DNA from: Candidatus Nitrosotenuis cloacae
GTDB lineage: Archaea > Thermoproteota > Nitrososphaeria > Nitrososphaerales > Nitrosopumilaceae
DNA: 64,000 nt
Assembly (NCBI RefSeq): GCF_000955905.1
Contig: NZ_CP011097.1
Span: forward strand, 1,452,582-1,516,581
Direction: 5' to 3'
Under the pieces are notes generated by a model that was not told the origin of the DNA, made no database searches, and saw nothing but the letters and a program-made list of their open reading frames with translations. Shown piece by piece: positions 3,960 to 57,247 of the stretch (position 1 is its first letter; every line of letters begins with the position of its first letter). The position numbers and the translations under genes are program-made.

Positions 3960-4265
3960 ATAACAACAAAGAAAACCAGATATGCTTTACTTTCCTTGAC
4001 AGTAATCACAGTTTTACTAGCAGGAGTACTAGCCCAGACATCCAATTTATTTGCTAACGCCATACCACAACAAGTCCCAATTGGAATTGACGAATCTGAT
4101 GGAGACGGTGAAACAGACGACGATAACGTAACTGCCGAGGGCCAAAATGGAGATGGCGATGGAGAATTCGATGATGACAATGTGGAAGCCAGTGATGGAG
4201 ACGGTGAAACAGACGACGATAACGTAGAGGAAAGTGATGGAGACGGTGAAACAGACGACGATTAG
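3960..4265 (+). CDS. Secreted acidic DGDGETDDDN repeat protein, probable ATA start
   Basis: From an ATA codon at 3960, six bases after a strong Shine-Dalgarno, the frame reads (M)TTKKTRYALLSLTVITVLLAG, a textbook signal peptide with basic n-region. The only ordinary start in frame is TTG at 3996, which falls inside the hydrophobic core and would lose the basic end. The mature part is about 60 residues of near-identical acidic units (SDGDGETDDDN). Alternating D-x-D-x-D patterns resemble calcium-binding loops of dockerin or thrombospondin type 3 repeats, so calcium binding at the surface is a fair guess. The unit is repeated at DNA level as well. A motif shared with the regulator and stress-protein genes lies upstream. 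Confidence 0.65.
   Translation: MTTKKTRYALLSLTVITVLLAGVLAQTSNLFANAIPQQVPIGIDESDGDGETDDDNVTAEGQNGDGDGEFDDDNVEASDGDGETDDDNVEESDGDGETDDD
4098..4262 (+). repeat. Coding DNA repeats in the acidic protein
   Basis: The stretch beginning GATGGAGACGGTGAAACAGA occurs three times with identical bases, starting at 4098, 4194 and 4236. A more diverged unit lies between the first and second. Identity including third codon positions points to recent slippage or unequal exchange. Confidence 0.75.
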
Positions 4266-4293
4266 ATAAGATCATTGTATCTTACCCCCCAAT

Positions 4294-4310
4294 CTTTTAT
4301 TTTTTATTCT
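4294..4310 (+). terminator. T-rich terminator between convergent genes
   Basis: A run of thymines broken by single adenines follows the acidic-repeat gene by about 30 nt, before the convergent transporter gene. Archaeal RNA polymerase terminates on such T tracts; no clear hairpin is needed or seen. Confidence 0.35.
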
Positions 4311-4324
4311 AAAAATTTAGTTTT

Positions 4325-5518
4325 TTACAAAACAATCGGCTTGAATTTTTTTATAAATAAAATCAGCCCACAAATGGCCATCATAGTGATCGCACCACTA
4401 TACCACAGAGCGACATCAAGATTAAATGAATCCCATAAAAACCCAAAAATCACATTTCCGGCAAAGAATGCTATTCCTGAAACCAGATTGTAAATTCCGA
4501 ACGCGGTTCCCCTTAGATTGGGGTCTACAAATCTTGGAATTATTGCACGTTGAACGGTTTCTGAAATTCCAAGATACAACCCAAAGACTGCCGCAACTAC
4601 ATATGCTGTACTAGTATCATATGCAATACTCATCAAAAACAAAGAAATTCCAAAAATTCCATAAGAAATCAAAATGATAAATTCTTTTCGGATTCTATCA
4701 GATAATGCACCGATTGGAAGTCCGATTGCAGCATGGGCCACATTTATTGCCAGATACACCAAAGGAACATAGTTTTTTTCCACACCGAGCTCGGACGAGC
4801 GCAGCAAAACAAATGAAAAATTGAATGCTCCAGCACCAAATATCCCACTTATTACAAGAAAGAATACAAAGGGTCGGTTATTTTTGAGTGCCTTGCCAAA
4901 TAAGGAAAAAATCTTTACAGGGTTGCCTATTTTGCTGGATGTATTTTCTTTTACTAAAAATATCAATATTAAAACTGCAATAGCACTTGGAACTAACGAG
5001 AAGAGAAAGATCGTTCGAATGTCGACTATTTGTAATAAGAGAAATGCCGCTAGTGGCCCAGCTATTGCTCCAAGCTGATCTAGTGTTCGATGTAAACCAA
5101 ATGCTTTTCCATGTTTAGCGTCTGGTACTGATTCAGAAATTAATGCATCGCGTGGAGCGGTTCGTATTCCCTTTCCAACCCTGTCGGCATTTCTTATCAA
5201 AAATGTATCAAACCAGTTATTTGCAAATGAGAAAAACGGCTTGCTTATTGTAGACAATCCATAACCAAGAATTACAAGTGGTTTTCTTTTGCCAATTTTA
5301 TCGGATATGGTACCCGATATCATTCTAAATGCATAACTGGAAAGCTCAGATGAGCCATCAAGTAGGCCTAGAAATGTTCTAGACAGGCCTAGTGTGCTTG
5401 TGACAAAATATGGCAAAATGCCAAACACCATTTCAGATGAGAAATCTGTGAAAAAGCTAACTAGGCCTAATGTCCTGATGTTTTTCATTCCAAATTTATC
5501 ATCAGTATGATTATTCAC
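4325..5518 (-). CDS. Major facilitator superfamily transporter
   Basis: A 397-residue polytopic membrane protein with about 12 hydrophobic helices and the two-half layout of the MFS. The loop after helix 2 has SGTISDKIGKRKPLVI, a good version of the family's GxxxDxxGRR motif, and the equivalent loop of the second half has GALSDRIRKEFII. An early segment (TAPRDALISES) resembles the helix 4-5 region of drug-efflux type members. The substrate cannot be told. The listed start is a GTG; an ATG ten codons later (5488) is equally likely. It is convergent with the acidic-repeat gene and has no operon partner. Confidence 0.9.
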   Translation of the reverse strand: MNNHTDDKFGMKNIRTLGLVSFFTDFSSEMVFGILPYFVTSTLGLSRTFLGLLDGSSELSSYAFRMISGTISDKIGKRKPLVILGYGLSTISKPFFSFANNWFDTFLIRNADRVGKGIRTAPRDALISESVPDAKHGKAFGLHRTLDQLGAIAGPLAAFLLLQIVDIRTIFLFSLVPSAIAVLILIFLVKENTSSKIGNPVKIFSLFGKALKNNRPFVFFLVISGIFGAGAFNFSFVLLRSSELGVEKNYVPLVYLAINVAHAAIGLPIGALSDRIRKEFIILISYGIFGISLFLMSIAYDTSTAYVVAAVFGLYLGISETVQRAIIPRFVDPNLRGTAFGIYNLVSGIAFFAGNVIFGFLWDSFNLDVALWYSGAITMMAICGLILFIKKFKPIVL

Positions 5519-5681
5519 AGTTACTTAGAGGGATGAGAGAAGATAATTCTTTCAAACATACTCAGAGCGAAAAAGATTTTGTGTACCATAAAACGGGGTA
5601 CAAAACGTCATAAATTAAAATTCTATCGAGTGGACAACTCTTTCGAATATTTTAAATGAATCAAAGAAGAAATTTGAATAA

Positions 5682-6401
5682 TTGCAAACAACCCAAAAAT
5701 CGATTAATTATCAATTGATTGCTATACTTATTATCGTAGGTATGCTTGTGGCAGGAATTTGGATCTTTGGTTTTGATGATGAGATATTTGGAACAAAAAC
5801 AGTCAATCAGAACTCCATTCCACAGCCAACACAACAAAAACAGATAGTATCAGATGATGTAATGATTGAAACCAAGCCCAGCGAAACTCCGCAAACAAAA
5901 CCAGATGCTGAGATGACAGAGAAGCCAAACGATCCTGAACAAAAACTCACAATCAAACACACTACAAACAAAGGCTCTAATCTGATGAAATCACTGGAAA
6001 ATTCCGAGTTTGAGCTTGATGTTCATGGAACTGCTTACGAAGGATCACGTTCGCTTTCGAAGGCTGCAGAAATCACTTTAAAGATGATTCCAGTCAAAGA
6101 TACAAATTTGGAAAAATTTGACGTTTCGGATGGAAAGCTGATTATTGGCATTACTGGGATTTCTTTTGACAAAGGAACTGCAGAAATCAAAGGAACAACA
6201 ATATCAATCAGTGTGACAAATGATGATTCGCTTGATCCATTCTTCACAATTATTGGAACCTTGGATGAGCCAGTCCGTGCAGACAAAGATACTAAACAGA
6301 AAGTTACATTTGCAGACCAACTGATCTATTTTGGAAAAAAAGATGAGGCCACGCCGCACCATTTTGATGCAGATGGGGAGCTAAAGCACACCTCTGTTTG
6401 A
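5682..6401 (+). CDS. Membrane-anchored extracytoplasmic protein
   Basis: A 239-residue protein with one helix at about residues 10-30 (LIAILIIVGMLVAGIWIFGF), a flexible Gln/Pro/Lys-rich linker to about residue 95, then a beta-rich domain starting ELDVHGTAYEG. That domain has some likeness to the C-terminal domain of the acidic coiled-coil protein at 7447-8367 (shared GTA, a KxxVxxG stretch and a following G-Q/K-T turn), suggesting a common lineage-specific fold. The TTG start at 5682 gives a normal n-region. Function unknown. It converges on the downstream drug/metabolite-type transporter with only 35 nt between. Confidence 0.7.
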   Translation: MQTTQKSINYQLIAILIIVGMLVAGIWIFGFDDEIFGTKTVNQNSIPQPTQQKQIVSDDVMIETKPSETPQTKPDAEMTEKPNDPEQKLTIKHTTNKGSNLMKSLENSEFELDVHGTAYEGSRSLSKAAEITLKMIPVKDTNLEKFDVSDGKLIIGITGISFDKGTAEIKGTTISISVTNDDSLDPFFTIIGTLDEPVRADKDTKQKVTFADQLIYFGKKDEATPHHFDADGELKHTSV

Positions 6402-7446: not shown

Positions 7447-8367
7447 TTAAGAGGACAGACTGCCTGTTCCTTCCAAGAACCATTGGCCTGCAATCTTGCT
7501 CTGCGGGCTGCCTATTTGCAAGTCTATTGGCTGTGTGTCTGCCATTTGAAATGATTGTGCTGAATCAAGATTCATTCGTATTGTGGTGATATCACCATTG
7601 TCATCCATTACTTCCGCTACAAGAAGAATGAAACTTCCTTGATCTGACGAGTTATCTGTAACTCTGGCTTTGCCAAAGACAATATCATAAGTTGTTTGTC
7701 CAATATCGACTTGGCCACCAGTTACTCGAAGTTTGCTATAGCCGTCTTTAGTTACTAGAGTTTCAACAAAGATATCGGCAGACACAGGTGCAGAAACTCC
7801 CTGATCTTGTATGGATGTTGCAGTTCCATCAAAGGACATTGTATAAGATTTTGTTGTCTGGTCTGTGTTTTCTAGATTGCCAAAGTACTTGCCATTCTGA
7901 ACCTTTTCAAGAAGAGATTGAATTCTCTGCTCTAGTTGTTCGATTTTCTGTTCTAGTTTTGATATTATCTGCTCTGTTTTTGCTTCAGATTTTTGTCTGT
8001 CTTGGCCATTGTTGTCTGTGTCAGATTCGTCATCTTTGTTATCTTCCGTGCCTTCTTCGTCTTCGGTCTCATCCTCTGATTCGTCTTCGGTCTCATCCTC
8101 TGATTCGTCTTCGGTCTCATCCTCTGATTCGTCTTCGGTCTCATCCTCTGATTCGTCTTCGGTCTCATCCTCTGATTCGTTTCCTTGTTCATTATCAAGA
8201 ATTTCAGAATCCTGTTCATCGTCGTCAGATTCAGCAAAAGCATTTACTCCTAGGACATTGAGATTGTCATTAGTCTTGTCTTGGTAGTTCAAGGCGTGTT
8301 GTGATAATGGATTGCCCATCAAGCCAAAAACAAGAATGGCTAGGATGTAAAAACTAGCGTTTTTCAT
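7447..8367 (-). CDS. Secreted acidic-repeat coiled-coil protein
   Basis: From the ATG at 8367 the protein begins MKNASFYILAILVFGLMG, a good signal peptide. Earlier starts (8379, 8385, 8442) exist but add an atypical N-terminus. After the export signal comes a stretch of five perfect octapeptide repeats (ESEDETED) at about residues 75-115, then a Lys/Glu-rich coiled coil (IISKLEQKIEQLEQRIQSLLEKV), then a 130-residue beta-rich domain ending at the C-terminus. The acidic repeat likely forms an extended, possibly cation-binding spacer that holds the globular end away from the membrane or S-layer. The C-terminal domain faintly resembles that of the protein at 5682-6401. Function unknown. Confidence 0.75.
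   Translation of the reverse strand: MKNASFYILAILVFGLMGNPLSQHALNYQDKTNDNLNVLGVNAFAESDDDEQDSEILDNEQGNESEDETEDESEDETEDESEDETEDESEDETEDESEDETEDEEGTEDNKDDESDTDNNGQDRQKSEAKTEQIISKLEQKIEQLEQRIQSLLEKVQNGKYFGNLENTDQTTKSYTMSFDGTATSIQDQGVSAPVSADIFVETLVTKDGYSKLRVTGGQVDIGQTTYDIVFGKARVTDNSSDQGSFILLVAEVMDDNGDITTIRMNLDSAQSFQMADTQPIDLQIGSPQSKIAGQWFLEGTGSLSS
8057..8176 (-). repeat. Five perfect 24-bp tandem repeats inside a gene
   Basis: Five exact head-to-tail copies of a 24-bp unit (plus strand starts TCGTCTTCGGTCTCATCCTC), each encoding eight acidic residues. Complete identity makes this a likely length-variable site. Confidence 0.9.
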
Positions 8368-8500
8368 TAAGGACGCCATCGACATATATGATTTAACATT
8401 TACGCAGAAATTCACTGTGAAGGTACTTTTTGATCTAACCATTACTCTAGAACGGAAAAGTGCAAAATCCTACCTTCTAACTACTATCCCATAGAATAGA

Positions 8501-10420: not shown

Positions 10421-13075
10421 TTATCCAGATGTGCATCCGGAGAATCCGCACTCTATGCAGATGCTGCATCCCTCAACGAACACTAGTGCGTTCTTGCAGG
10501 ATGGACAAAGCATATCTTCTGATATTTCTTCCTTAACTCCAGACTCTAACAATGGTTCCTCTGGAATCTTTAGTTGTAGTGCATTGTTGACCTGCGCTCG
10601 AACATAGTTGTTCTTGATGCTCTTGCTGATGAATTCGTGCAAGAACGAGCTTGGCACGACATCAAATGTTTTCTGTGCATTCTCGCTAGTCATGTGCAGT
10701 ACCTGGGTGTGTCTAGAGCCATCTCTGTATACAGTAATTCCCTTTAGTCCTAGCTCATGAGCCAACAGATATGCAGCCTTTACATCGTCTGCGGAAACAT
10801 CATGTGGCATGTTGATTGTCTTGGCTATAGCATTTCCAATCCATTCTTGCCATACTGCCTGCGCCATCAGATGGTCAGACCAGTGTATATCCATTGCAGT
10901 GACAAAGATGTTTTGAATCCATTCTGGAACCTCTGCTAGGCCTCGAACCGAGCCATAGTTGTCAGCGATTTTTGCCAACAGTTCATCAGAGTACAGCCCA
11001 TTTTCTCGGAGTACTTGCTCAAAGATCTTGTTGGTGTAGAAAAAGCGTCCTACTGTTACGCGTTTCTCAAACACTAGAGCAAATGTTGGCTCCATTCCAT
11101 TTGAGCAGTCTGCTATCATGGATAAGGTTCCGGTTGGTGCCACTGTTGTGGTCAGAACGTTTCGTATGCCGTGCTTTTGGATCTTAGATATTAGTGCGTC
11201 CCAGTCATAGTAGTGCTCTCCTTTTGGCTTTTCATAGTACCCAGAGACTGGAATCTTTCCTTCTGGGAACTCGGTTTTTCCGCACAGATCAAATTCGCCT
11301 CTGGAACGAGCAAGCGCTACGCTTTCTTCCATGGAATAGTACGTTAGTGCCTCTGCCAGCTTGAACTGGAATTCGTATCCTTCTTTGGAGTTGTATGGAA
11401 TTCTCAGCTTGTATAGCAGATCTGCAACGCCCATTACGCCAAGGCCTATTCGTCGGGATTCCTTTGATGCCTGATCGATTTCCGGCACCGGGTAGTGATT
11501 CATGTCAATTACATTGTCCAAGAATCTGGTTGTCTTGCGGACGGTTTCCTCGTATCTTTGCCAGTCAAATTCGAATTGGCCATCTGCCTTTCTTTTTACA
11601 AGATTTGCCAGATTGATAGAGCCCAAGTTGCATGACTCGTATGGGTATAGTGACTGCTCGCCGCACGGGTTTGTAGCTCGTAGTGGCCCACCGCGCGCCT
11701 TTGCAAACACATTGTACTTGTTGATATTATCAAAGAATATCAAGCCAGGCTCTGCGCTCTTCCATGCAGATAATGCAATCAGATCAATTAGCTGGTGTGC
11801 ATTGATTTCTTTTACTGGAACTCTGTCGCGTGGACTGCGGAGTGTGTATTTTCCGTCTGTGCTATCTACTAGTGCAGACCAAAAGTCCTCCCATACTCCG
11901 ACTGAGACATTAAAGTTCTCCAGGATTCCGTCCTTGGTTTTGTTTGTGATGAATTTTTCAATGTCTGGGTGCCATGCTTCTAGGATTCCCATGTTTGCGC
12001 CGCGTCTTTTGCCGCCTTGCTTTACTACTTCGGTTACGGTATTGATAATATTCATGAAGGACACAGGTCCTGATGCAACACCAGATGTTGATGCAACAAT
12101 ATCGCCTTCGTGCCTTAGGTCAGAATAGTTGATTCCAACTCCTCCGCCGGACTTGAAGATTAGTGCCGCGTCTGATGTGGACTTCATTATATCTCCCATG
12201 TCATCAGGCATGCCAAGCACAAAGCACGCAGACAGTTGTCCTAGGCGTGCTCCGGCATTCATCATTGTTGGTGAGTTTGGCAAAAAGTCCTGCTCTGTCA
12301 TGAGGGTATAGTATTCGCCTATGCGGTCTGCATATTGCTCAAACTTTTTTGCTGCCAGCAATGTCAGAACTTCTTTGAAGCTCTTTTTCATTTGGCCGCG
12401 CTTTGCAAGATATGCATACTGGTTTATCAGACCTCTGAAATGATACTTGTTCAGATAGTATTGCCCTATTTTGAATTTGTAATCAAAGTCATCAAGCTTG
12501 CTTAGATATTTTCTTGCCTCTTCTGCGTCCTGGTGTGCCCCTCCCTCTCTGACATATAATTCCGAGTCGTACAGGATATCACCCACGCCGACCAGAATTG
12601 CAACTCGCTCAAACATTTGGCTTGGGCTTTCTGTGATTTCGTTTTTGTTGTTTCTAAGTAGGTATCTTGATGCCAAGACCCTCAGGCAGTTCAGATCAAA
12701 TGATTTTGAAACATTGTCTAGTGTCTTGGTGTTGAGTACCTTCATCTTGTCTTCTCGCACCTTGCGACGCTCGTGTCTATACAAGATGTAGGCTTTGGCA
12801 ATTTCGCCATAGCCTTTTTCGATTAGCGTTGACTCGACCATGTCTTGGACGTCTTCGACGCTTGGTGGGTGTGATGCAGCAAATCCCTGTTGGATAAGCT
12901 TGTTCAACACCCCGCTGGTCAAGTCATCAGCTATTTTGCGGTCTGGCTGGCCGTTTGCCACCAGAGCCTTGTAGATCGCATTTGTGATCTTTTCTTTATT
13001 AAATGCTGTAATTCTACCGTCGCGTTTCTTTACGTCAACGATCGAACTTTCAATTTGAGAAAAATCTGTTGTCAT
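10421..13075 (-). CDS. nrdJ: Adenosylcobalamin-dependent ribonucleotide reductase (class II)
   Basis: This enzyme makes deoxyribonucleotides from ribonucleotides using a cobalamin radical. An N-terminal ATP-cone (VKKRDGRITAFNKEKITNAI) is followed by the ten-stranded barrel with LSACFVLGMPDD, FKSGGGVGINYS, the active-site loop NPCGEQ-LYPYESCNLGSINLA, and TVAPTGTLSMIADCSNGMEP. The C-terminus holds a CPSCK...CSICIECGFSGC cluster that supplies redox or zinc-binding cysteines. The ATG at 13075 is preferred because GAGGGGAG lies just upstream; a GTG at 13090 is in frame. Nitrososphaerota make cobalamin, which fits a B12-dependent enzyme. The next gene upstream is a likely nucleotide-sensing regulator. 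Confidence 0.95.
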   Translation of the reverse strand: MTTDFSQIESSIVDVKKRDGRITAFNKEKITNAIYKALVANGQPDRKIADDLTSGVLNKLIQQGFAASHPPSVEDVQDMVESTLIEKGYGEIAKAYILYRHERRKVREDKMKVLNTKTLDNVSKSFDLNCLRVLASRYLLRNNKNEITESPSQMFERVAILVGVGDILYDSELYVREGGAHQDAEEARKYLSKLDDFDYKFKIGQYYLNKYHFRGLINQYAYLAKRGQMKKSFKEVLTLLAAKKFEQYADRIGEYYTLMTEQDFLPNSPTMMNAGARLGQLSACFVLGMPDDMGDIMKSTSDAALIFKSGGGVGINYSDLRHEGDIVASTSGVASGPVSFMNIINTVTEVVKQGGKRRGANMGILEAWHPDIEKFITNKTKDGILENFNVSVGVWEDFWSALVDSTDGKYTLRSPRDRVPVKEINAHQLIDLIALSAWKSAEPGLIFFDNINKYNVFAKARGGPLRATNPCGEQSLYPYESCNLGSINLANLVKRKADGQFEFDWQRYEETVRKTTRFLDNVIDMNHYPVPEIDQASKESRRIGLGVMGVADLLYKLRIPYNSKEGYEFQFKLAEALTYYSMEESVALARSRGEFDLCGKTEFPEGKIPVSGYYEKPKGEHYYDWDALISKIQKHGIRNVLTTTVAPTGTLSMIADCSNGMEPTFALVFEKRVTVGRFFYTNKIFEQVLRENGLYSDELLAKIADNYGSVRGLAEVPEWIQNIFVTAMDIHWSDHLMAQAVWQEWIGNAIAKTINMPHDVSADDVKAAYLLAHELGLKGITVYRDGSRHTQVLHMTSENAQKTFDVVPSSFLHEFISKSIKNNYVRAQVNNALQLKIPEEPLLESGVKEEISEDMLCPSCKNALVFVEGCSICIECGFSGCTSG

Positions 13076-13224
13076 TATGTCTCCCCTCACTAGGTATAAT
13101 CGGTTTGGATATAACCGTGACGCCGAAAACTTTCAGATTTTAGCTCAACAAGTTTTACACCGTTACGAGAATTTTCATTTAGGTCATTCGTGGACATGAA
13201 AACGATTTGCGTTAATTTGAAAAT

Positions 13225-13234
13225 TGATCGATCA
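13225..13234. promoter_or_regulatory. TGATCGATCA palindrome upstream of nrdJ
   Basis: A perfect 10-bp palindrome about 150 nt before the nrdJ start and about 55 nt after the end of the regulator gene. GATC-centred elements also lie before the regulator gene itself (around 15430-15472). Operator function is a guess based on position. Confidence 0.2.
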
Positions 13235-13287: not shown

Positions 13288-15387
13288 TCAGCTGATAATG
13301 TATGGCGACTTGCAGGATGGGCATTTCTCGAATAGCTTTTCGTCTTTGAAGCCACAGTTACCACATATAGGAACGTCCTTGCTTGGTCTGAACGAGCCTA
13401 CAAGATCGCCTGCCTTCTCTATTGCCTTTTTGATCTCCTCTACCTTGGAGTCACGCTCAAATCTTAGTTGTACCAACAAGCCTCCGTTTAGGATCTTGGC
13501 TGTCTTGTTGGCGTCTGCGATCTTTTCCGACTTGGCGTTTAGCGAGTCCATTTCTGAGGCTAAAACAAGCACACCTTGTGAGTAAAATTCCGTATCTAGC
13601 GACTTGAGAACAGACATCTTACCGTACTTGTCGCCATCAAGTGAGCTAAATCTGGCAATTCCATCGGATTCAGTCATGGTTACAATAACAGAGTCACCCA
13701 TTTCCTTGCCCTTCTTTTCGGCAACATCGACTGCCGTTTGCAGTACCTTATAGATGATGTCGCGCCCTTCTTTGTCGTCCGAATAGCCTAAAATGTTAAA
13801 GACTGCTTCCTTTAGTCCTACTAGATTCACTACCAAGCCCACTGAGCTTCTCTGCATGTATTGCGTGTTTGCTGCAAGCACCGGGTTTAGTCCACGTCTG
13901 GTTAGATCGGAGATGTCTTTTTTGCGCAAAGACATTGCAGCAAGTGCTGGCTTCATCAGTAAGGCAAGTCTTGCTCTGAAATATGTCTCGTCCTTGTTTG
14001 ACTCAAATGCAAGTCTTGGCAGGTTGATCGTAAGTGATTGCAAGTTTATGGATGATGTGCTGTTCTTTGCCTTGATGCGAGTGATTCCGCTGTATGATGT
14101 TTCGTCCTTTGAGAACAAAACCTTTCCACCAATGGATATGATTTCAGAAATTGTTTGTGATACATCTGAGACTTTGCCTGCGGAATAATCTATTATCAGT
14201 CCAACCTGTGGTACTGGTGTCATCTTGACATAGTTCTTGTATGCATTTAGTATTGCACCAACTAGTTTTGGTTCTGCACCAAGCTCGATTCTAAATGAAA
14301 CCAGTGTTGGCTCTTTGGTGTATTTGGATGATGTGGAGGAGGTGACCAGTGCTGCCACCAGCTTTTCTTCTAGTTCTGTGACGTTCTTTGCATGCTTTGC
14401 GCACAATTGTACCAGCCCATCCATGATTATCTCTCGAGAGGCCTCCTTTGATGCCAAAGATACGATCATGGAAAGCGATGACATTAGATTGTCCAGCGTC
14501 TTTATTGTGGCAAGTCTGCTAACTCCGAGGAATTTTCCTTTTAGATCAATTCCGTCCTCGATCAGCTCCTTTATGTTAAAGAATATTGTATCAGGCAATA
14601 GCGACCAGATTCCCGGATTTGAGATGTGAATGTCGCCTGAGAGGTGCGAGTCTGCAACGTCCTTTGGAAGCGCATTTAGCAGTAAAGACTCTGCAAATAT
14701 GGTCTGACCAGACTTGAAGAATAACCCCTGTGCGCCATTGTCGATATTATCGACATTTGTGAGCATTTCCTGGATATCAAACACAGGCATGCCTAGGCGT
14801 GCGAGTTTGTTGCGGTATTCCTCATGGCCGTGCTCCAATAGTACAGAATTGACCATCTCGCGGATTAGCGAGCCTGTGAGGTATGTTGTTTGGTATTTGT
14901 AGATGCGGTTTTCGACTTCCTCTGTGATTTTTTGCGCCAGCTCTAGTGGAAGGCTTCCTTCCCGGACTAGTGACTGGATGATTTTATGAGAGTTAAATTC
15001 CTCAATTGATTCATGTGAGGTTCGCACATACATTTTGCCAGACTCTATGATAGAGCGTTCTTCTATTTGGCGGGCCAAGCTTAGTACCAGTTTTCCAAGG
15101 TTTGTAATGGTGTAACGTCGCTCAGACTTGTTTAGTGCGACAAGGGACTGTCTTAGTAATTTTCTCAAGTGATATGCAAATTTTCCGCTTTCCTTTTTGG
15201 ACTTGAATCCGGCAAGTGACTTTAGCTCAGAATATGTCAGTGGGCCTTTGGAGTTTAGGATTCTTAGGATATCAATTCTGTTTGGACTTGCCATGACAGA
15301 GAAGATCATTCTTACGCGTTTTGATGTAGATTGTAAGATTCCGCCGGACTTTTTAGGATCGATCATTCCGGCAGCCTCAACGCTCAT
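13288..15387 (-). CDS. Winged-helix / ATP-cone / NrdD-like probable nrd regulator
   Basis: A 699-residue fusion. Residues about 25-110 form an ArsR-type winged helix (SPNRIDILRILNSKGPLTYSE, then the wing SERRYTITNLGKLV). Residues about 120-205 look like an ATP-cone (VRTSHESIEEFNSHKIIQSL). The remaining 450 residues are distantly like an anaerobic (class III) reductase, ending with a zinc knuckle CGNCG...CPSCK. The chain stops there: the glycyl-radical RVxGY segment that follows this zinc site in NrdD is missing, and only one other cysteine (LVQLCAKHAK) is present. It is thus very unlikely to be a reductase. A DNA-binding head on a nucleotide-binding body beside nrdJ suggests a dNTP/ATP-sensing transcription factor, analogous in idea to bacterial NrdR. 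This is inference. Confidence 0.75.
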   Translation of the reverse strand: MSVEAAGMIDPKKSGGILQSTSKRVRMIFSVMASPNRIDILRILNSKGPLTYSELKSLAGFKSKKESGKFAYHLRKLLRQSLVALNKSERRYTITNLGKLVLSLARQIEERSIIESGKMYVRTSHESIEEFNSHKIIQSLVREGSLPLELAQKITEEVENRIYKYQTTYLTGSLIREMVNSVLLEHGHEEYRNKLARLGMPVFDIQEMLTNVDNIDNGAQGLFFKSGQTIFAESLLLNALPKDVADSHLSGDIHISNPGIWSLLPDTIFFNIKELIEDGIDLKGKFLGVSRLATIKTLDNLMSSLSMIVSLASKEASREIIMDGLVQLCAKHAKNVTELEEKLVAALVTSSTSSKYTKEPTLVSFRIELGAEPKLVGAILNAYKNYVKMTPVPQVGLIIDYSAGKVSDVSQTISEIISIGGKVLFSKDETSYSGITRIKAKNSTSSINLQSLTINLPRLAFESNKDETYFRARLALLMKPALAAMSLRKKDISDLTRRGLNPVLAANTQYMQRSSVGLVVNLVGLKEAVFNILGYSDDKEGRDIIYKVLQTAVDVAEKKGKEMGDSVIVTMTESDGIARFSSLDGDKYGKMSVLKSLDTEFYSQGVLVLASEMDSLNAKSEKIADANKTAKILNGGLLVQLRFERDSKVEEIKKAIEKAGDLVGSFRPSKDVPICGNCGFKDEKLFEKCPSCKSPYIIS

Positions 15388-15451
15388 GAATATAGCGTGA
15401 GATCAGTCCTAAATAAGACTTGTGAAGTGATCTAAAACAAACTTTTTTTGA

Positions 15452-15613
15452 TCAGTTTTTGTTTACGTCGATCGAAAACTCGGAGGTCGACAGGGCCTGG
15501 CCACAAGATGGACATTTGGAATTGTAATGTTTCATTACGTCCTTGACGGGCTTTAGCATTTTCATGTTTGCGATCTTTGCTCCACATTTTCCACAGGTCA
15601 CATCAACTGACAT
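15452..15613 (-). CDS. 53-residue zinc-ribbon protein
   Basis: A short reading frame of 53 codons starting MSVDVTCGKCGAKI and continuing to KCPSCGQALS. Two CxxC knuckles 24 residues apart make a classic zinc ribbon; the C-terminus is a short charged tail. The reading frame lies alone between the nrd-type regulator and the DUF35 gene on the same strand. The paired CGKCG/CPSCG knuckles and codon use support a real gene. It may bind nucleic acid or a protein partner; no specific role can be read. Confidence 0.7.
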   Translation of the reverse strand: MSVDVTCGKCGAKIANMKMLKPVKDVMKHYNSKCPSCGQALSTSEFSIDVNKN

Positions 15614-15683: not shown

Positions 15684-16049
15684 TTACTGTTTTTCTAAAA
15701 GGATTCCGCGATCATCGTAGCCAGTTATTTTGATCCTAGAGCCCATTGGAAGCTGTGATGGCGATCCAATTCCACCCAAAAAGCCAGATACACGTAGCTC
15801 AGAGTCGTCAATTTTCATTACAACCCATGCATATGGAGTGTATTTCTCAAAGCCGGCAGGCGGAACCGTGATTATTGTATAGGTTGCAACCGTTCCCGTA
15901 CCGTTTAGTATTTCATTTACAAAGCCCTTTGCCCCACAGTTTTGGCAAAAGTATACTGTTGCCAGGTGCAAATGCGAGCACTTGGTGCACTTTTTGGCAA
16001 GAACCTTGCCTGACTTGACTGCATCTACGAATTCTTGCTTCATTGACAA
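15684..16049 (-). CDS. DUF35 zinc-ribbon/OB-fold protein
   Basis: A 121-residue protein with an N-terminal helix (QEFVDAVKSGKVLAKKC), a zinc ribbon (CTKCSHLH...CQNCGAK) and an OB fold (GTGTVATYTIITVPPAGFE), the standard DUF35 layout. Proteins of this family hold thiolase and HMG-CoA synthase together in archaea: the published Methanothermococcus complex shares one CoA tunnel for channelling acetoacetyl-CoA. Its start lies a few bases after the thiolase stop, so the two are one operon. No HMG-CoA synthase gene is in the window. Start may be Met1 or Met3. Confidence 0.92.
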   Translation of the reverse strand: MSMKQEFVDAVKSGKVLAKKCTKCSHLHLATVYFCQNCGAKGFVNEILNGTGTVATYTIITVPPAGFEKYTPYAWVVMKIDDSELRVSGFLGGIGSPSQLPMGSRIKITGYDDRGILLEKQ

Positions 16050-16055
16050 GGCAGA

Positions 16056-17210
16056 TTACACGCCTTGGAAAATGTGAACTGCGCAGCTTGCACCGGTTGC
16101 GCCAAAGTTGTGGGTCAGGCCGATTTTTGCGTCCTTTACGGTGCGCTCACCTGCCTTTCCTGTTAATTGCTCAAAAACCTCAACTACCTGTCCGACACCT
16201 GTTGCGCCTATTGGATGACCCTTTGCCTTTAGTCCGCCAGACGGATTGATTGGAATGTCACCATTTCTTGCAGTTCTTCCCTCTCGCACTGCTTGCACTC
16301 CTGTTCCTTTCTCAAAGAATCCCAGGTCTTCAGTGTCTACCACTTCGGCAATGGTAAAGCAGTCATGAACCTCTGCAAAGTCAATGTCTTTTGCAGTAAT
16401 TCCTGCCATCTTGTATGCTGCCTGTGCGGCAAGCTTTGTGCTTGGGATTGTGGTCATGTGGTCTCTGCCTTGCAGTGTTGCAGGTGATCCACCCCTTCCG
16501 GATCCTATTACATTAACATAATTCTTGGAATGCTCTTTTGCAAATTTCTCAGAACACAGTATGACTGCGCTTGCGCCATCAGAGAACGGACAGCAATCAT
16601 ATAGTTTTAGTGGGCTTGCCACAACTGCTGACTTCATCACATCATCGATTGAGATTTTCTTTCTGAGGTGTGCCTTTGGATTTAGCAAGCCATTTTCATG
16701 GTTTTTCACTGCGACTGCTGCCAAGTCTTCCTCTGTTGCCTTGAATTCATTCAGATACGCACGTGCCATTGATGCAAACAGTCCAGGGAATGATGCACCT
16801 GCACCACCCTCATAGAAGAAATCAGAGCAATATGAAAAGTAAGTTGTGGTCCATTCTGTGCCGGTGTGAGTTACCTTTTCTGTTCCGGCAACCAGTACCG
16901 CATCGTAAAATCCTGCTGCAACATTTGCAAACGCCTCTCTAAATGATACAGAGCCAGAGCCGCATGCAGACTCGATAGATAATGATGGTTTTTCTGGAAT
17001 TCCCAGATTGCTCATGACTACAGGTCCTAGGTGAACCTGCTTGTCTGCAACTCCAAAGACATTGGAGATATAACCTGCCTGAATCTCTTTTGGATCGATT
17101 CCTGCGCTCTCTATTGCGCCAATTGAGGCTTGAATTGTAATATCGGTAATGCTATCGTCTAATTTTCCATATTTGGTGCTACCAGCGCCAAGAACGCAGA
17201 CCTTTTCCAC
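16056..17210 (-). CDS. Thiolase (acetyl-CoA C-acetyltransferase type)
   Basis: A 384-residue thiolase. The nucleophile is Cys83 in IESACGSGSVSF; the catalytic His lies in GGLKAKGHPIGATG, and the second Cys in GATGASCAVH. A HDCFTIAE stretch is also present. It condenses two acetyl-CoA into acetoacetyl-CoA for mevalonate and archaeal lipids, or splits acetoacetyl-CoA in the 3-hydroxypropionate/4-hydroxybutyrate carbon-fixation cycle of this phylum. The DUF35 partner downstream favours the mevalonate complex, but either or both uses are possible. Archaeal SCP2-type thiolases of this length are typical. Confidence 0.92.
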   Translation of the reverse strand: MEKVCVLGAGSTKYGKLDDSITDITIQASIGAIESAGIDPKEIQAGYISNVFGVADKQVHLGPVVMSNLGIPEKPSLSIESACGSGSVSFREAFANVAAGFYDAVLVAGTEKVTHTGTEWTTTYFSYCSDFFYEGGAGASFPGLFASMARAYLNEFKATEEDLAAVAVKNHENGLLNPKAHLRKKISIDDVMKSAVVASPLKLYDCCPFSDGASAVILCSEKFAKEHSKNYVNVIGSGRGGSPATLQGRDHMTTIPSTKLAAQAAYKMAGITAKDIDFAEVHDCFTIAEVVDTEDLGFFEKGTGVQAVREGRTARNGDIPINPSGGLKAKGHPIGATGVGQVVEVFEQLTGKAGERTVKDAKIGLTHNFGATGASCAVHIFQGV

Positions 17211-52189: not shown

Positions 52190-55100
52190 TTATTTTATAA
52201 TTGCTTTAAAGCCAGGGTTTTGCTCAAGGCTGGAAAACACATTATCCAGTTTTACCATATTACCATATGCCGGATCAAGCTCAACCAAGACTTTGATCAG
52301 TTTTATCGAGTCGGCTAGTTTGCCAAGCAGTACAAGCGATTTAGCTTTGTGATACAGTACGTCCTTATTTTGTGGCTCACTTGATAAAACATGATCAAAC
52401 TCGGAAATTGCTTCTGTGTGTCTTGCGGCAAGCTGCAATGTCTTTGCTTTTTGTGTAATCCAGATATGATCATCTGAAGATAATTTGGAAAAACACTCTA
52501 TGGATTCGTCATATTTGGCAAGCTTTGAGAGCAAGACTGCCTTTTGGTATAATGCCGATTGGTTGTTTGACTCATTTTCCAGTATCAAATCAAACAGAAT
52601 AGACGATTTCTCATATTGACCCAAAGTTGAGTATATGATTCCCTTGTGAAGTAAGACATCATTGTCGGCCTTTTGTATTTGCTCAAAACAAGAGACAGCA
52701 TTTTCATATTCTCCAAGTGATACAAGTGCTTGGCCTTTATGATATAATGCAGAAGGATCATTGGCGTTTTGTATCATAACATCAAAACACGAAATTGCAT
52801 CTGAGAATTTTTCTAATTTCTTTAGAGCGATTCCTTTGTTTAGTATCGAATCAATATGGTTTGGATAGACTGCAAGAAAATTATCAAACACATTTACTGC
52901 CTGCTCATACTGTTTGGTGTGTAAAAGACACAGCCCCAAATAATACAAAGTTTCTTTGTATTGAGCGTCATGTTGGATGATTTTTTCGATGCAATCCAAA
53001 GCGACTTGATATTGTTCTGTTTTTACAGAAATCATTGCAAATGTGTATAGCGCTTCCAAGTTGTTTTTATCAATGGATAGTGCTTTTTGGCAATAATCTG
53101 CAGCATCATGTATCATATCAAGACAGAACAACGACTTTGCCTTGTAGACTAGTGCGTTCAAATCATTTTGATTTATTCTCAATACTTGATCCAGATTATA
53201 AATTGCAGAATCAAACCTATTCAGCTCAAACAAAAGCTTGCCTTTGTGGAATAATCCATCTGGATGATTGGGACTTTTAGCAAGAATTTGATCAAAGCAA
53301 CTAATTGCACCCTCAAGATTTTGGAGACTCTCAAGAATTAGTCCCTTATCAAATAATGCCTCGGTATGATCCTTGTTAAAGTCAAGAACCCTATCAAAAA
53401 TCTCCAGTGCCTCTGAATACATGCCTGTGTTTGTGTAAAGATGTCCTTTTTGGTACAGCACTTGGTAATCATTTGGAGATATTTGAAGAGCCTTGTTGTA
53501 GCAGGCAAGCGCCTCTGAGTATTTTTCCAGTGCTGCAAAGGTAAGGCCTTTGTGGTGTAGGGTGTCGGCGTTGTTTGGTGATATGGCCAGAGATTTGTCA
53601 AAGTAGGCGAGGGCCTCGGCATAGTCGGAGAGGTGGAATAGGGCAAGGCCTTTGTGGTGTAGGGTGTCGGCGTTGTTTGGTGATATGGCCAGAGATTTGT
53701 CAAAGTAGGCGAGGGCCAATACGTACTCACCTAGTCTTAGATGTGATACGCCTCTGTGGTATAACACTAGGACATGTTGCGGGTTTTGCTGTAATGTTTT
53801 ATCAAACACAACTATTGCCTCAGCGTCACGGCCGAGTGCTGAAAGAGTTTTTGCTTTTTCAAACATAGCCAAATGATTTAATTTGTCATAAACTAGAACA
53901 CCATCAAAACACTTTAGCGCGTCGGAATGACGCTGAAGTTTGTTTAGGGCAAGGCCTTTTTCATATGATGATGTGGTGTGGTTTGGGTTTTTGTCCAATA
54001 TCTTGTTGTAGATTTCAACTGCATTGCTGTTTTGGCCCATGCTGGCAAATGACTTTGCATATGCTAGCTGTGTATTTTGATCGTTTGGACATATCAACAA
54101 TAATGATGAATAACATTCCAGTGCCTTGGCATGATTTCCAAGATTTGCAAGCAATAGTCCTTTATGATACAATGCGCTGACACATTTTGGATCTAGTGTT
54201 ATTGCACGATCAAAATGCAAAAGTGAATTTTCATAATAGCCTAGTTTCTGAAGTAGGTAACCTTTCTCACTTAGTGCCTCTGCAAACTTTGGGCGAATCT
54301 GCAATGCTTTGTCATGACATGTGATGGCCTCTGAGTATTTTTCCAGTGCTGCAAAGGTAAGGCCTTTGTGGTGTAGGGTGTCGGCGTTGTTTGGTGATAT
54401 GGCCAGAGATTTGTCAAAGTAGGCGAGGGCCTCGGAATAGTTGGAGAGGTGGAATAGGGCAAGGCCTTTGTGGTGTAGGGTGTCGGCGTTGTTTGGTGAT
54501 ATGGTAAGTGCCTTGTCATAACAAGAAATGGCGTCTGCGTAACGAAACAGACTATCCAGTACGATTGCTTTTTGGAATAACGACTCGAAGTGGTTTGGTG
54601 ATATGGCCAGAGATTTGTCAAAGTAGGCGAGGGCCTCGGAATAGTTGGAGAGGTGGAATAGGGCAAGGCCTTTGTGGTGTAGGGTGTCGGCGTTGTTTGG
54701 TGATATGGCCAGAGCACTATCCAGGCAGATCAAGGCCTCTTTGTGCTTTGACAGAACAGATAATGTCATTGCCTTGTGGGAGACGGCATCAAAGTGAGCT
54801 GGATTGTACTGTAACACTTGATCAAAGTAGCTAAGAGCCTCAGAGTGCTTGCCTGTTGTGGCAAGTGCCAACCCCTTGTGGTATAGTGCAGGTGTGTTGG
54901 ATGGGTTTAGCTGCAAGGCCTTATCAAAACACACGATCGCATTATGTATAGATCCTAGTTGCAGTAAAGCAAACGCCTTGTAGTATAGCGCATCAAAATT
55001 ATTTACATCAATTCCAAGTACTAGATCAAGACATTCTATTGCTCGATCATATTTGCCAAGCTTAGATAATGATCTTCCTTTGCCATACAATACATCGGGA

Positions 55101-57247
55101 TTGTTTGGCTCGGTTTCCAGAATTGCATCGTAGCATAAAATTGCCTCATGTTCTCTGTTTAATGCAGAAAGAGATTGGGCTTTGTTATACAATACATAGC
55201 CATTGTTTGGTTCATTTTCCAGTATCAGATTAAGATTAGAAAGAGATTCCTCATAGCTACCTATTTCATGTAATGAGATTGCCTTGTTGACAAGAACTTG
55301 TATGTTGTTTGGAGATAGTTTTAGTGCCCTATCAAAATAGGTGAGGGCCTCTTTGTGCTTTGACAGAACAGATAATGTCATTGCCTTGTGGGAGACGGCA
55401 TCAAAGTGAGCTGGATTGTACTGTAACACTTGATCAAAGTAGCTAAGAGCCTCAGAGTGCTTGCCTATTGTGGCAAGTGCCAACCCCTTGTGGTATAGTG
55501 CAGGTGTGTTGGATGGGTTTAGCTGCAAGGCCTTATCAAAATAAGTTAGCGATTCTACCGATTTGCCAAGCTTGTACATGGAGTGGCCTATGCTGGCAAG
55601 AATAGAGTCGTTGTTTGGAGATATGGTTAGGGCTTTTTCAAGATATACTAGGGCCTCAACATGGTTTGAGAGCTGCAATAACGCAAGGCCTTTTTGGTGT
55701 AGTGCATTTGCATTGTTTGGATTTATTGTAAGAGATTTGTCAAAGTATGCAAGTGCCTCATTGTATTTTCCCAAATGTAAAAGACATGTAGCCTTGCCAA
55801 GAACACTGTCAATGTGAGATTGGTTTACTGCTAGAGTTTTCTCATAAAATGAAAGTGCATCAGAATATTTGCCCAAATGCAAAAGGCACGATGCCTTGCC
55901 AAGAACACTGTCGTGATGTTTTGGATTTGCCTTTAATGATGAATTAAAGCATTCTAGTGCTGCATCATAATATCCAAGCAGATGTAATGTTCTTGCTTTG
56001 CTACAGATTGCATCAAAATGATTTGGCATTATTTCAAGAATGTTATCATATGATGATATTGCCCGATCATGTATTCCAGAATAAGACAGTGCAGTTGCTT
56101 TGCAGTACAATGCATCTACATTAGCAGGGTTTACTTCTAGGATGATGTTGCAATTTTTGATTGCAGATTCATAGTCATCCAAAGAAGATAGCGTGTTTGC
56201 CTTTTGCAGTATTGCTTCCTCAAAGCCAGAATCAAGTGAGATTGCCTTATCAAAATATTCTAGTGCCTCAGATTTTTTACCAGTCTCCAAAAATGCACGA
56301 CCAAGCTCATAGAACACTATAGGTCGATTAGGGCTAAACTCTAGCGATTTCTCATAATATGATATTGCCAGATGATGTTTGCCAAGGTTTGCAAGGCATA
56401 TGCCTTTGCCAAACAAAATATCAGCATGGTGTGGGTCTATTTCTAGTGCCTTATCAAAACAAGACAATGAAGTTTCATATTGTCCCAGTCCGATCAGTGA
56501 GAGGCCTTTGTTGTATATGGCATCAAAGTATTGCGGATTTGTCTCTAATGCCCTATCATACAGAAATATTGCTTCTTTGTGGTTGCCAAGCGATGATAGT
56601 GCAATTGCCTTGTTGACAAGAATCTGCGTGTTGTTTGGCTCTATCTCCAGCGCCCTATCAAAAAACGGCACTGCATCATTATTATTTCCAAGATGCATTA
56701 ATGCTAGGCCTTTTTTGTACAAGCCATCAAGATAATTTGGATCTATTGCAAGCGTTTGCTCATAGCATGAAAGTGCCTCCTGATGCTTTGATAGTAATGC
56801 AAGCGAATCACCCTTGCAGTGTAGTGCATCAAAGTATTGCGGATCGATTTCCAACACCCTATCATACAATGAAATTGCTTCTTTGTGGTTGCCAAGCTTT
56901 GATTGGATCAATCCCTTGCTTAGCAGTGCCTTGACATTTTGCGGATCGGCTCGCAACAGCTTATCATATGATGTGAGTGCCCTGGTGTACTGCCTGTCGT
57001 AATAATGAAAACTTCCCAAAAGAGCATCGAGATCTTTGTCTGATGTTTGCTTTTGTTTTGGGATGCGCGCCTGTAGCTTTTCTTGGACCTTTAGCATGCT
57101 CGCTACCTTTGATTTGTCATCGACGGATAGCTCCAAGTGCTGATTTGGATCTAGATCTGGCTTTATTCCACGACCCTCAATTAGGCGTTTGAGCAGTCCA
57201 TTTACAAGTGCTAATTGGTTTAGAACGATACTATCCGAAGATGTCAT
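52190..57247 (-). CDS. Giant tetratricopeptide-repeat protein
   Basis: A 1685-residue protein. A 65-residue helical head leads into about 47 TPR units of 34 residues, to residue about 1670. Each fits the pattern ALxxFDKALxIxPNNxxALxxKGLALxxLGKY. No catalytic domain, signal or membrane helix. TPR arrays bind peptides or proteins, and such a long one would form a superhelix tens of nanometres long. It is transcribed opposite to the TrmB and surface-protein genes. Several units are near-identical in DNA, pointing to recent expansion. Function unknown; a role near the flagellar or envelope scaffolding is speculation. Confidence 0.92.
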   Translation of the reverse strand: MTSSDSIVLNQLALVNGLLKRLIEGRGIKPDLDPNQHLELSVDDKSKVASMLKVQEKLQARIPKQKQTSDKDLDALLGSFHYYDRQYTRALTSYDKLLRADPQNVKALLSKGLIQSKLGNHKEAISLYDRVLEIDPQYFDALHCKGDSLALLSKHQEALSCYEQTLAIDPNYLDGLYKKGLALMHLGNNNDAVPFFDRALEIEPNNTQILVNKAIALSSLGNHKEAIFLYDRALETNPQYFDAIYNKGLSLIGLGQYETSLSCFDKALEIDPHHADILFGKGICLANLGKHHLAISYYEKSLEFSPNRPIVFYELGRAFLETGKKSEALEYFDKAISLDSGFEEAILQKANTLSSLDDYESAIKNCNIILEVNPANVDALYCKATALSYSGIHDRAISSYDNILEIMPNHFDAICSKARTLHLLGYYDAALECFNSSLKANPKHHDSVLGKASCLLHLGKYSDALSFYEKTLAVNQSHIDSVLGKATCLLHLGKYNEALAYFDKSLTINPNNANALHQKGLALLQLSNHVEALVYLEKALTISPNNDSILASIGHSMYKLGKSVESLTYFDKALQLNPSNTPALYHKGLALATIGKHSEALSYFDQVLQYNPAHFDAVSHKAMTLSVLSKHKEALTYFDRALKLSPNNIQVLVNKAISLHEIGSYEESLSNLNLILENEPNNGYVLYNKAQSLSALNREHEAILCYDAILETEPNNPDVLYGKGRSLSKLGKYDRAIECLDLVLGIDVNNFDALYYKAFALLQLGSIHNAIVCFDKALQLNPSNTPALYHKGLALATTGKHSEALSYFDQVLQYNPAHFDAVSHKAMTLSVLSKHKEALICLDSALAISPNNADTLHHKGLALFHLSNYSEALAYFDKSLAISPNHFESLFQKAIVLDSLFRYADAISCYDKALTISPNNADTLHHKGLALFHLSNYSEALAYFDKSLAISPNNADTLHHKGLTFAALEKYSEAITCHDKALQIRPKFAEALSEKGYLLQKLGYYENSLLHFDRAITLDPKCVSALYHKGLLLANLGNHAKALECYSSLLLICPNDQNTQLAYAKSFASMGQNSNAVEIYNKILDKNPNHTTSSYEKGLALNKLQRHSDALKCFDGVLVYDKLNHLAMFEKAKTLSALGRDAEAIVVFDKTLQQNPQHVLVLYHRGVSHLRLGEYVLALAYFDKSLAISPNNADTLHHKGLALFHLSDYAEALAYFDKSLAISPNNADTLHHKGLTFAALEKYSEALACYNKALQISPNDYQVLYQKGHLYTNTGMYSEALEIFDRVLDFNKDHTEALFDKGLILESLQNLEGAISCFDQILAKSPNHPDGLFHKGKLLFELNRFDSAIYNLDQVLRINQNDLNALVYKAKSLFCLDMIHDAADYCQKALSIDKNNLEALYTFAMISVKTEQYQVALDCIEKIIQHDAQYKETLYYLGLCLLHTKQYEQAVNVFDNFLAVYPNHIDSILNKGIALKKLEKFSDAISCFDVMIQNANDPSALYHKGQALVSLGEYENAVSCFEQIQKADNDVLLHKGIIYSTLGQYEKSSILFDLILENESNNQSALYQKAVLLSKLAKYDESIECFSKLSSDDHIWITQKAKTLQLAARHTEAISEFDHVLSSEPQNKDVLYHKAKSLVLLGKLADSIKLIKVLVELDPAYGNMVKLDNVFSSLEQNPGFKAIIK
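53512..53688 (-). repeat. 177-nt TPR tract repeated at 54328-54504
   Basis: The two tracts differ at two bases by eye and are 816 nt (eight 102-nt units) apart. A third, shorter version of the same unit pair lies around 54596-54711. Confidence 0.85.
54734..54929 (-). repeat. 196-nt TPR tract repeated at 55346-55541
   Basis: One base difference by eye (54855 G, 55467 A); distance is 612 nt, six 102-nt units. In-phase duplication keeps the reading frame and TPR register. Confidence 0.85.

Follow-up and report, generated by a model that had tools for sequence, protein, structure and literature searches.

To our knowledge, how the supply of DNA precursors is controlled in archaea without NrdR is an open question. 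The locus studied here poses it in a concrete form: in the 64-kb window (the whole stretch of DNA analysed), the gene for a B12-dependent reductase, nrdJ, is preceded by a gene whose product looks like an anaerobic class III reductase (NrdD) with an additional DNA-binding head. Judging by gene content and kin, the genome is that of a member of the Nitrosopumilaceae, which are ammonia-oxidising archaea. Is this product a second enzyme, or has an enzyme here been turned into something else? A preliminary description of this DNA had opted for the latter, proposing a reductase converted to a nucleotide-sensing transcription factor that adjoins the B12 reductase. The adjacency holds, with nrdJ being the next gene downstream on the minus strand, and the conversion is supported by sequence-based evidence of several kinds, namely family-wide loss of catalysis, a head that is the most constrained part of the protein, an RNR neighborhood and GATC-centred sites. 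On these grounds we consider it quite probable that the protein, henceforth pseudo-NrdD, is a pseudo-reductase that acts as a transcription factor, both on the RNR locus and on its own gene (Table 1).

Table 1. Features of the pseudo-NrdD locus, in coordinates of the window
Feature	Position	Strand	Remarks
Pseudo-NrdD gene (probable regulator)	13288..15387	(-)	699 aa; ATG at 15387, stop 13290..13288
ArsR-like winged helix	15037..15330	(-)	residues 20-117
ATP-cone	14773..15033	(-)	residues 119-205; VRTS (121-124) replaces the KRDG loop
NrdD-like body	13378..14772	(-)	residues 206-670; T267 and G434 at both catalytic Cys positions
Zinc knuckle	13312..13365	(-)	C675-C678-C689-C692; gene ends 7 codons on
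Putative promoter (TATA) core CTTATTTA	15410..15417	(-)	conserved in Nitrosopumilaceae
Putative operator	15429..15455	(-)	CTGATC-N17-GATC, two GATC 21 bp apart
Possible weak site TGATCGATCA	13225..13234	(-)	pseudo-NrdD/nrdJ intergenic; no score with the promoter-trained model
nrdJ	10421..13090	(-)	probable target; encodes a class II (B12-dependent) reductase that has a canonical ATP-cone of its own

The architecture of winged helix, ATP-cone and NrdD-like body, which had first been read from the letters, was recovered with Pfam profiles that all scored above their cut-offs: HTH_20 (residues 32-84) and DUF7347 (28-102) in the head, followed by the ATP-cone (119-191; E 7.6e-9) and NRDD (438-694; E 1.2e-25). 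Structure prediction, suggested in the preliminary description as a check, agrees with this: an AlphaFold2 model of the whole protein (pLDDT 84.5) has the NrdD fold, with class III reductases occupying all of ranks 1-36 in a Foldseek search against the PDB, and the head modelled alone (pLDDT 91.5) is a winged helix that matches those of the ArsR/SmtB/CzrA and MarR proteins. The protein reaches 83 bits (E 1.7e-23) against the NCBIfam model for NrdD (TIGR02487), whose cut-off is 326, and is therefore not called an NrdD.

In the NrdD of P. copri, the substrate and radical residues are those of the NxN flap and the HxHD motif, along with Cys171, Cys416, Gly711 and Tyr712 (PMC11226230). We aligned 39 members of the pseudo-NrdD family with 20 real NrdDs from the same phylum and found the first-strand and finger-loop cysteines in 20/20 of the latter, whereas 0/39 pseudo-NrdDs have either of them; the protein in the window has T267 and G434 in their place. 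The two asparagines of the NxN flap are kept in 3% and 18% of the family, the second histidine of HxHD in 0%, and the glycine and tyrosine of the glycyl loop in 3% and 0%, respectively. The structural zinc cysteines persist in 38/39 members. Hence, both the likeness to NrdD down to the zinc knuckle and the lack of active cysteines and of a glycyl-radical segment stand as first described. Among the irregular cases, three sibling sequences from one genus have a cysteine at a neighboring position of the finger loop (GCRF) and are devoid of the first cysteine and the glycine, while L058 has a glycine at the aligned glycyl position without the catalytic cysteines. Two pseudo-NrdDs (L048 and L049) are without a zinc knuckle, which can therefore be lost.

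The fate of the glycyl loop differs between lineages. In the alignment of the Bathyarchaeial pseudo-NrdDs it is visibly eroded, with versions such as RVSAKH, RVSAKY, RSSATY, RTENMF and RTASGY as opposed to the RVTGYY or RVVGYL of real NrdDs; these loops may be read as a record of the change from enzyme to regulator. In the ammonia-oxidiser pseudo-NrdDs the loop is deleted, and the frame in the window stops 7 residues past the last zinc cysteine. A frameshift hiding the loop was considered and rejected, as no RVxGY was seen downstream of the pseudo-NrdD stop.

These losses bear directly on the possibility that pseudo-NrdD is still a working anaerobic reductase, which obtains its glycyl radical from a separate protein. 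The NrdD fold and the zinc knuckle are indeed retained, as that would require, but the catalytic cysteines are absent in 39/39 members, NxN and HxHD are broken, and NrdJ is at hand. Moreover, searches of the organism's own 1.62-Mb single-contig genome returned a single NRDD gene, that of pseudo-NrdD itself, no Gly_radical protein and no NrdG activase match above the cut-off; a glycyl-radical partner elsewhere, which the preliminary description had named as counter-evidence, was thus looked for in this genome and not found. With the residues lost and neither a Gly_radical protein nor an above-cut-off NrdG match in the genome, a working reductase with its radical in trans is effectively ruled out, its probability being close to nil.

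Loss of so many catalytic residues, together with one locus (L047) where the frame is broken, might also mark a decaying nrdD pseudogene. Against this, the gene is present in 74/74 ammonia oxidisers, its overall omega (NG86) is about 0.03, indicative of purifying selection, and in comparison with the nearest congener dN is 0 in the head, the cone and the knuckle. The omega value and the absence of nonsynonymous change in the head leave decay as a negligible prospect, and we rule it out.

Selection is unevenly distributed along the protein. Comparison of the window with Nitrososphaeraceae gave identities of 92-95% for the head, 68-82% for the cone and 30-42% for the body, with NrdJ at 62-66% and the thiolase encoded nearby at 74-78%. 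For most Nitrosopumilaceae the identity of the head is 99-100%, with some divergent members (e.g. 82% in L038). In real NrdDs the body is conserved above the cone (0.64 vs 0.57; 0.76 vs 0.68); the Bathyarchaeial pseudo-NrdDs show the reverse, with 0.39 for the body and 0.69 for the cone. By these measures, the strongest constraint is on the predicted DNA-binding head. As the enzyme parts are lost and a DNA-binding head is gained, pseudo-NrdD is most likely a switch for the adjoining RNR gene. The near-frozen state of the head suggests more than one target, and this opens the way for a different interpretation: pseudo-NrdD could act globally in ammonia-oxidising archaea, as a transcription factor that relays the nucleotide state to many genes, with nrdJ merely a neighbor. 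Identities of 99-100% in most Nitrosopumilaceae and of 92-95% across families are above what one or two sites would lead one to expect; the distribution of the sites themselves, discussed below, speaks against it.

If the head were the output, the ATP-cone, and possibly also the old specificity site, would likely be the nucleotide sensors. The fold of the cone is kept, with a near-invariant VRTS throughout the family where the KRDG phosphate loop would be. Around it, V121, R122 and E129 are invariant and T123 and K135 occur in 90% or more of the members. KRDG is the loop by which ATP-cones grip the phosphates; with its loss, nucleotide binding by pseudo-NrdD may therefore be altered or lost. 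The pseudo-NrdD cone (YLTxPLIREFVNxxLxE...YRHKLTRLGxPVYD) resembles that of the NrdD type encoded by nrdH-nrdD operons (FVSGPLIREMVNNILLD...YRNLLTRVGTPVYD). Nucleotide sensing, as originally proposed, is plausible for pseudo-NrdD, and the chance that its ligand is ATP/dATP or another nucleotide appears roughly even.

The genomic neighborhoods tie pseudo-NrdD to RNR genes. It lies directly upstream of nrdJ on the same strand in 49/49 ammonia-oxidiser loci with sufficient flank. In one family (L042:6172-8544), the usual nrdJ behind the regulator is replaced by a gene for a shorter NrdJ that is of a different type (33% identity). Among 20 Bathyarchaeial loci an RNR gene is directly downstream in 5, as nrdH-nrdD (L057, L063 and L073), nrdD (L061) or nrdJ (L069). 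In a set of 80 Bathyarchaeial loci that overlaps these 20, nrdH-nrdD, nrdD or nrdJ is downstream in 14, and the other 66, many of them on short contigs, have no RNR neighbor. With neighbors that may be nrdJ, nrdD or nrdH-nrdD, the class of the RNR partner therefore varies and pseudo-NrdD is the constant. In the window, the minus strand reads nitrilase, thiolase, DUF35, a 53-aa zinc ribbon, pseudo-NrdD and nrdJ. The thiolase/DUF35 pair (17210..15684, minus strand) shows upstream synteny with pseudo-NrdD in both Nitrosopumilaceae and Nitrososphaeraceae, and the zinc-ribbon ORF (15608..15450, minus strand), between the DUF35 gene and pseudo-NrdD, is conserved in Nitrosopumilaceae. At L047 (genome G307), the broken pseudo-NrdD frame consists of two overlapping pieces (4597-6126 and 3998-4552), and a 921-bp spacer with repeated units precedes nrdJ.

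Residence beside an RNR gene would also suit a regulator acting at the protein level, i.e. a dead NrdD that binds and tunes NrdJ or NrdD and uses its winged helix for protein contacts; viruses are known to have dead reductase subunits that serve non-enzymatic functions. We regard this as improbable. The partners, NrdJ and NrdD, belong to unrelated classes, and the nrdJ of L042 is of another type again; furthermore, it is the head that is most conserved, it matches DNA-binding regulators, and phased sites occur in the promoters.

The GATC-centred palindromes noted in the preliminary description are real: nowhere in the 64-kb window is GATC as dense as in the pseudo-NrdD promoter (6 in 150 bp, partly within the gene start), and the spots at 54931 and at about 30000 and 31050 were dismissed, being in coding sequence. 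In 36 Nitrosopumilaceae loci, we counted 4.4 GATC per region upstream of pseudo-NrdD as against 1.2 in shuffles, and 3.3 before nrdJ as against 1.1, with some of the upstream stretches taking in a little coding sequence. Spacings between these words show a 10.4-bp periodicity that is in register with the promoter core. In the window, two of them lie 21 bp apart at 15453 and 15432, with 23 bp between the second and the end of the CTTATTTA core, and in other species the usual distances to the core are 23, 33/34 and 43/44. The phase is strong upstream of pseudo-NrdD (mean cosine 0.58; 0/2000 random placements as high) and lower before nrdJ (0.39; 1/2000 as high), in tests that, like the others on these sites, treat species as independent and ignore kinship. 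GATC-N17-GATC precedes nrdJ in 13 species, mostly in a form similar to GATCATTTTT(C/G)AAAA(C/T)TTTTTGATC. A site model trained only on the pseudo-NrdD promoter and then scored on the nrdJ regions was matched by at most 3/100 shuffles in 20/31 species; the species of the window (L006) has a weak nrdJ region, where 69/100 shuffles score as high. Altogether, GATC-centred sites are present in the pseudo-NrdD promoter and, in many species, in the nrdJ promoter, as putative operators.

The word AAACTGATCHAAA allows the global-factor interpretation to be weighed. It occurs 67 times in 21 genomes; 14 of these copies, from 13 genomes, lie outside the pseudo-NrdD gene and within 202 bp of it; about three quarters of 18 other copies inspected are inside ORFs. 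The genome-wide copies were accordingly discarded as a regulon, being mostly within ORFs and with no recurring target seen. Such concentration at the pseudo-NrdD locus, and the lack of a second intergenic cluster among the densest GATC spots of the window, make a global factor unlikely in our estimate, if still the strongest of the competing explanations.

How widespread is this putative regulator? Matches to pseudo-NrdD were found in 287/398 genomes of the phylum (E 1e-3), the weak ones among which may be to the ATP-cone only. The match table has it in 74/74 sampled ammonia-oxidising archaea, spanning the window's own genus, family and order. A scan of 84,980 species yielded 537 related stretches, and the 80 that were kept are nearly all from Bathyarchaeota, along with one record each from Hecatellales and Njordarchaeum; going by these matches, pseudo-NrdD is common in Bathyarchaeia. 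In a phylogenetic tree, 50 pseudo-NrdDs and 28 real NrdDs are split by a single branch with a support of 100, by which the pseudo-NrdDs are one monophyletic family. As the root of the tree is not known, we claim a single origin and not an exact donor. A real RNR is also present in 30/30 tested genomes with pseudo-NrdD. No match to NrdR (TIGR00244) was found anywhere in the window's own genome. Three Bathyarchaeia (G001, G172 and G190) have both NrdR and pseudo-NrdD, with the NrdR gene close to the real nrdD.

Accordingly, we posit the following scenario for pseudo-NrdD as a regulator of the RNR locus. A copy of NrdD would have acquired an ArsR-like winged helix at its N-terminus and ceased to be catalytic, with the radical and substrate residues disappearing family-wide and the whole glycyl loop in ammonia-oxidising archaea. 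Real NrdDs are dimers with N-terminal ATP-cones; if the pseudo-NrdD body still forms such a dimer, it would set the heads at a fixed spacing, with the winged helices outside the cones, and offer two or more of them to sites that are whole helical turns apart. The winged helices would thereby bind the helically phased GATC-centred sites in their own promoter and in that of the neighboring RNR gene. For the pseudo-NrdD gene the sites lie immediately upstream of its putative TATA core, and for nrdJ they lie further upstream, a placement that could serve autoregulation and nrdJ control through either repression or activation. In its fullest form, the allosteric sites of the dead reductase would read the dNTP state and the winged helices would in turn control the living class II or class III RNR, replacing NrdR in ammonia-oxidising archaea and Bathyarchaeia, a scenario that we see as evenly poised between right and wrong.

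Several known systems share principles with this one. Pseudo-NrdD has in common with NrdD the ATP-cone, the ten-stranded barrel fold, the zinc knuckle and the homology of the body; unlike NrdD, it has no catalytic cysteines or radical glycine, a broken NxN and HxHD, an extra winged helix and no NrdG. NrdR is the ATP-cone repressor of RNR genes (PMC9110341). Like pseudo-NrdD, it combines an ATP-cone with a DNA-binding domain, is RNR-adjacent and has helically phased sites in RNR promoters and its own (PMC9110341). The two differ in that NrdR is a protein of about 150 aa with a zinc ribbon, whereas pseudo-NrdD has a winged helix and a whole reductase body in its 699 aa; the putative GATC motif is also distinct from that of NrdR, and the nrdJ site in the window's own species is weak. 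NrdR in disguise was rejected, with neither the protein nor the genome matching TIGR00244. The head has the fold of the ArsR/SmtB regulators (HTH_20; CzrA/SmtB in Foldseek); the ArsR proteins themselves are small and sense metals or redox state, whereas in pseudo-NrdD the sensor part would be the reductase body.

Another parallel is with GabR, NrtR and the ROK repressors, where a winged helix is combined with what was once an enzyme and now serves as the sensor of the ligand it had then, just as pseudo-NrdD joins a winged helix to a putative enzyme-derived sensor. We know of no enzyme-derived regulator built on the reductase fold. The inactive herpesvirus R1 homologues are reductase subunits that have lost catalysis and taken up another job; they are class I R1 proteins and act on host signaling, whereas pseudo-NrdD is a putative DNA-binding regulator. 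Literature searches, in which subscription journals were thinly covered, returned no earlier description of a pseudo-NrdD regulator. Thus, enzyme-derived sensors in regulators are known, and one on the reductase fold is new as far as we know; if true, it would be the first known transcription factor of that kind. It would also provide a candidate RNR regulator, with predicted sites, in a group that ranks among the most abundant archaea. In practical terms, pseudo-NrdD is easily mislabelled as an anaerobic reductase in annotation, and class III activity would then be wrongly suggested for ammonia oxidisers.

Elsewhere in the window, two further minus-strand genes code for proteins with repeats: one of 331 aa (7447..8442) has acidic TEDESEDE units in tandem, and one of 1685 aa (52190..57247) consists mostly of TPR-like repeats, among which there are long stretches that are nearly identical.
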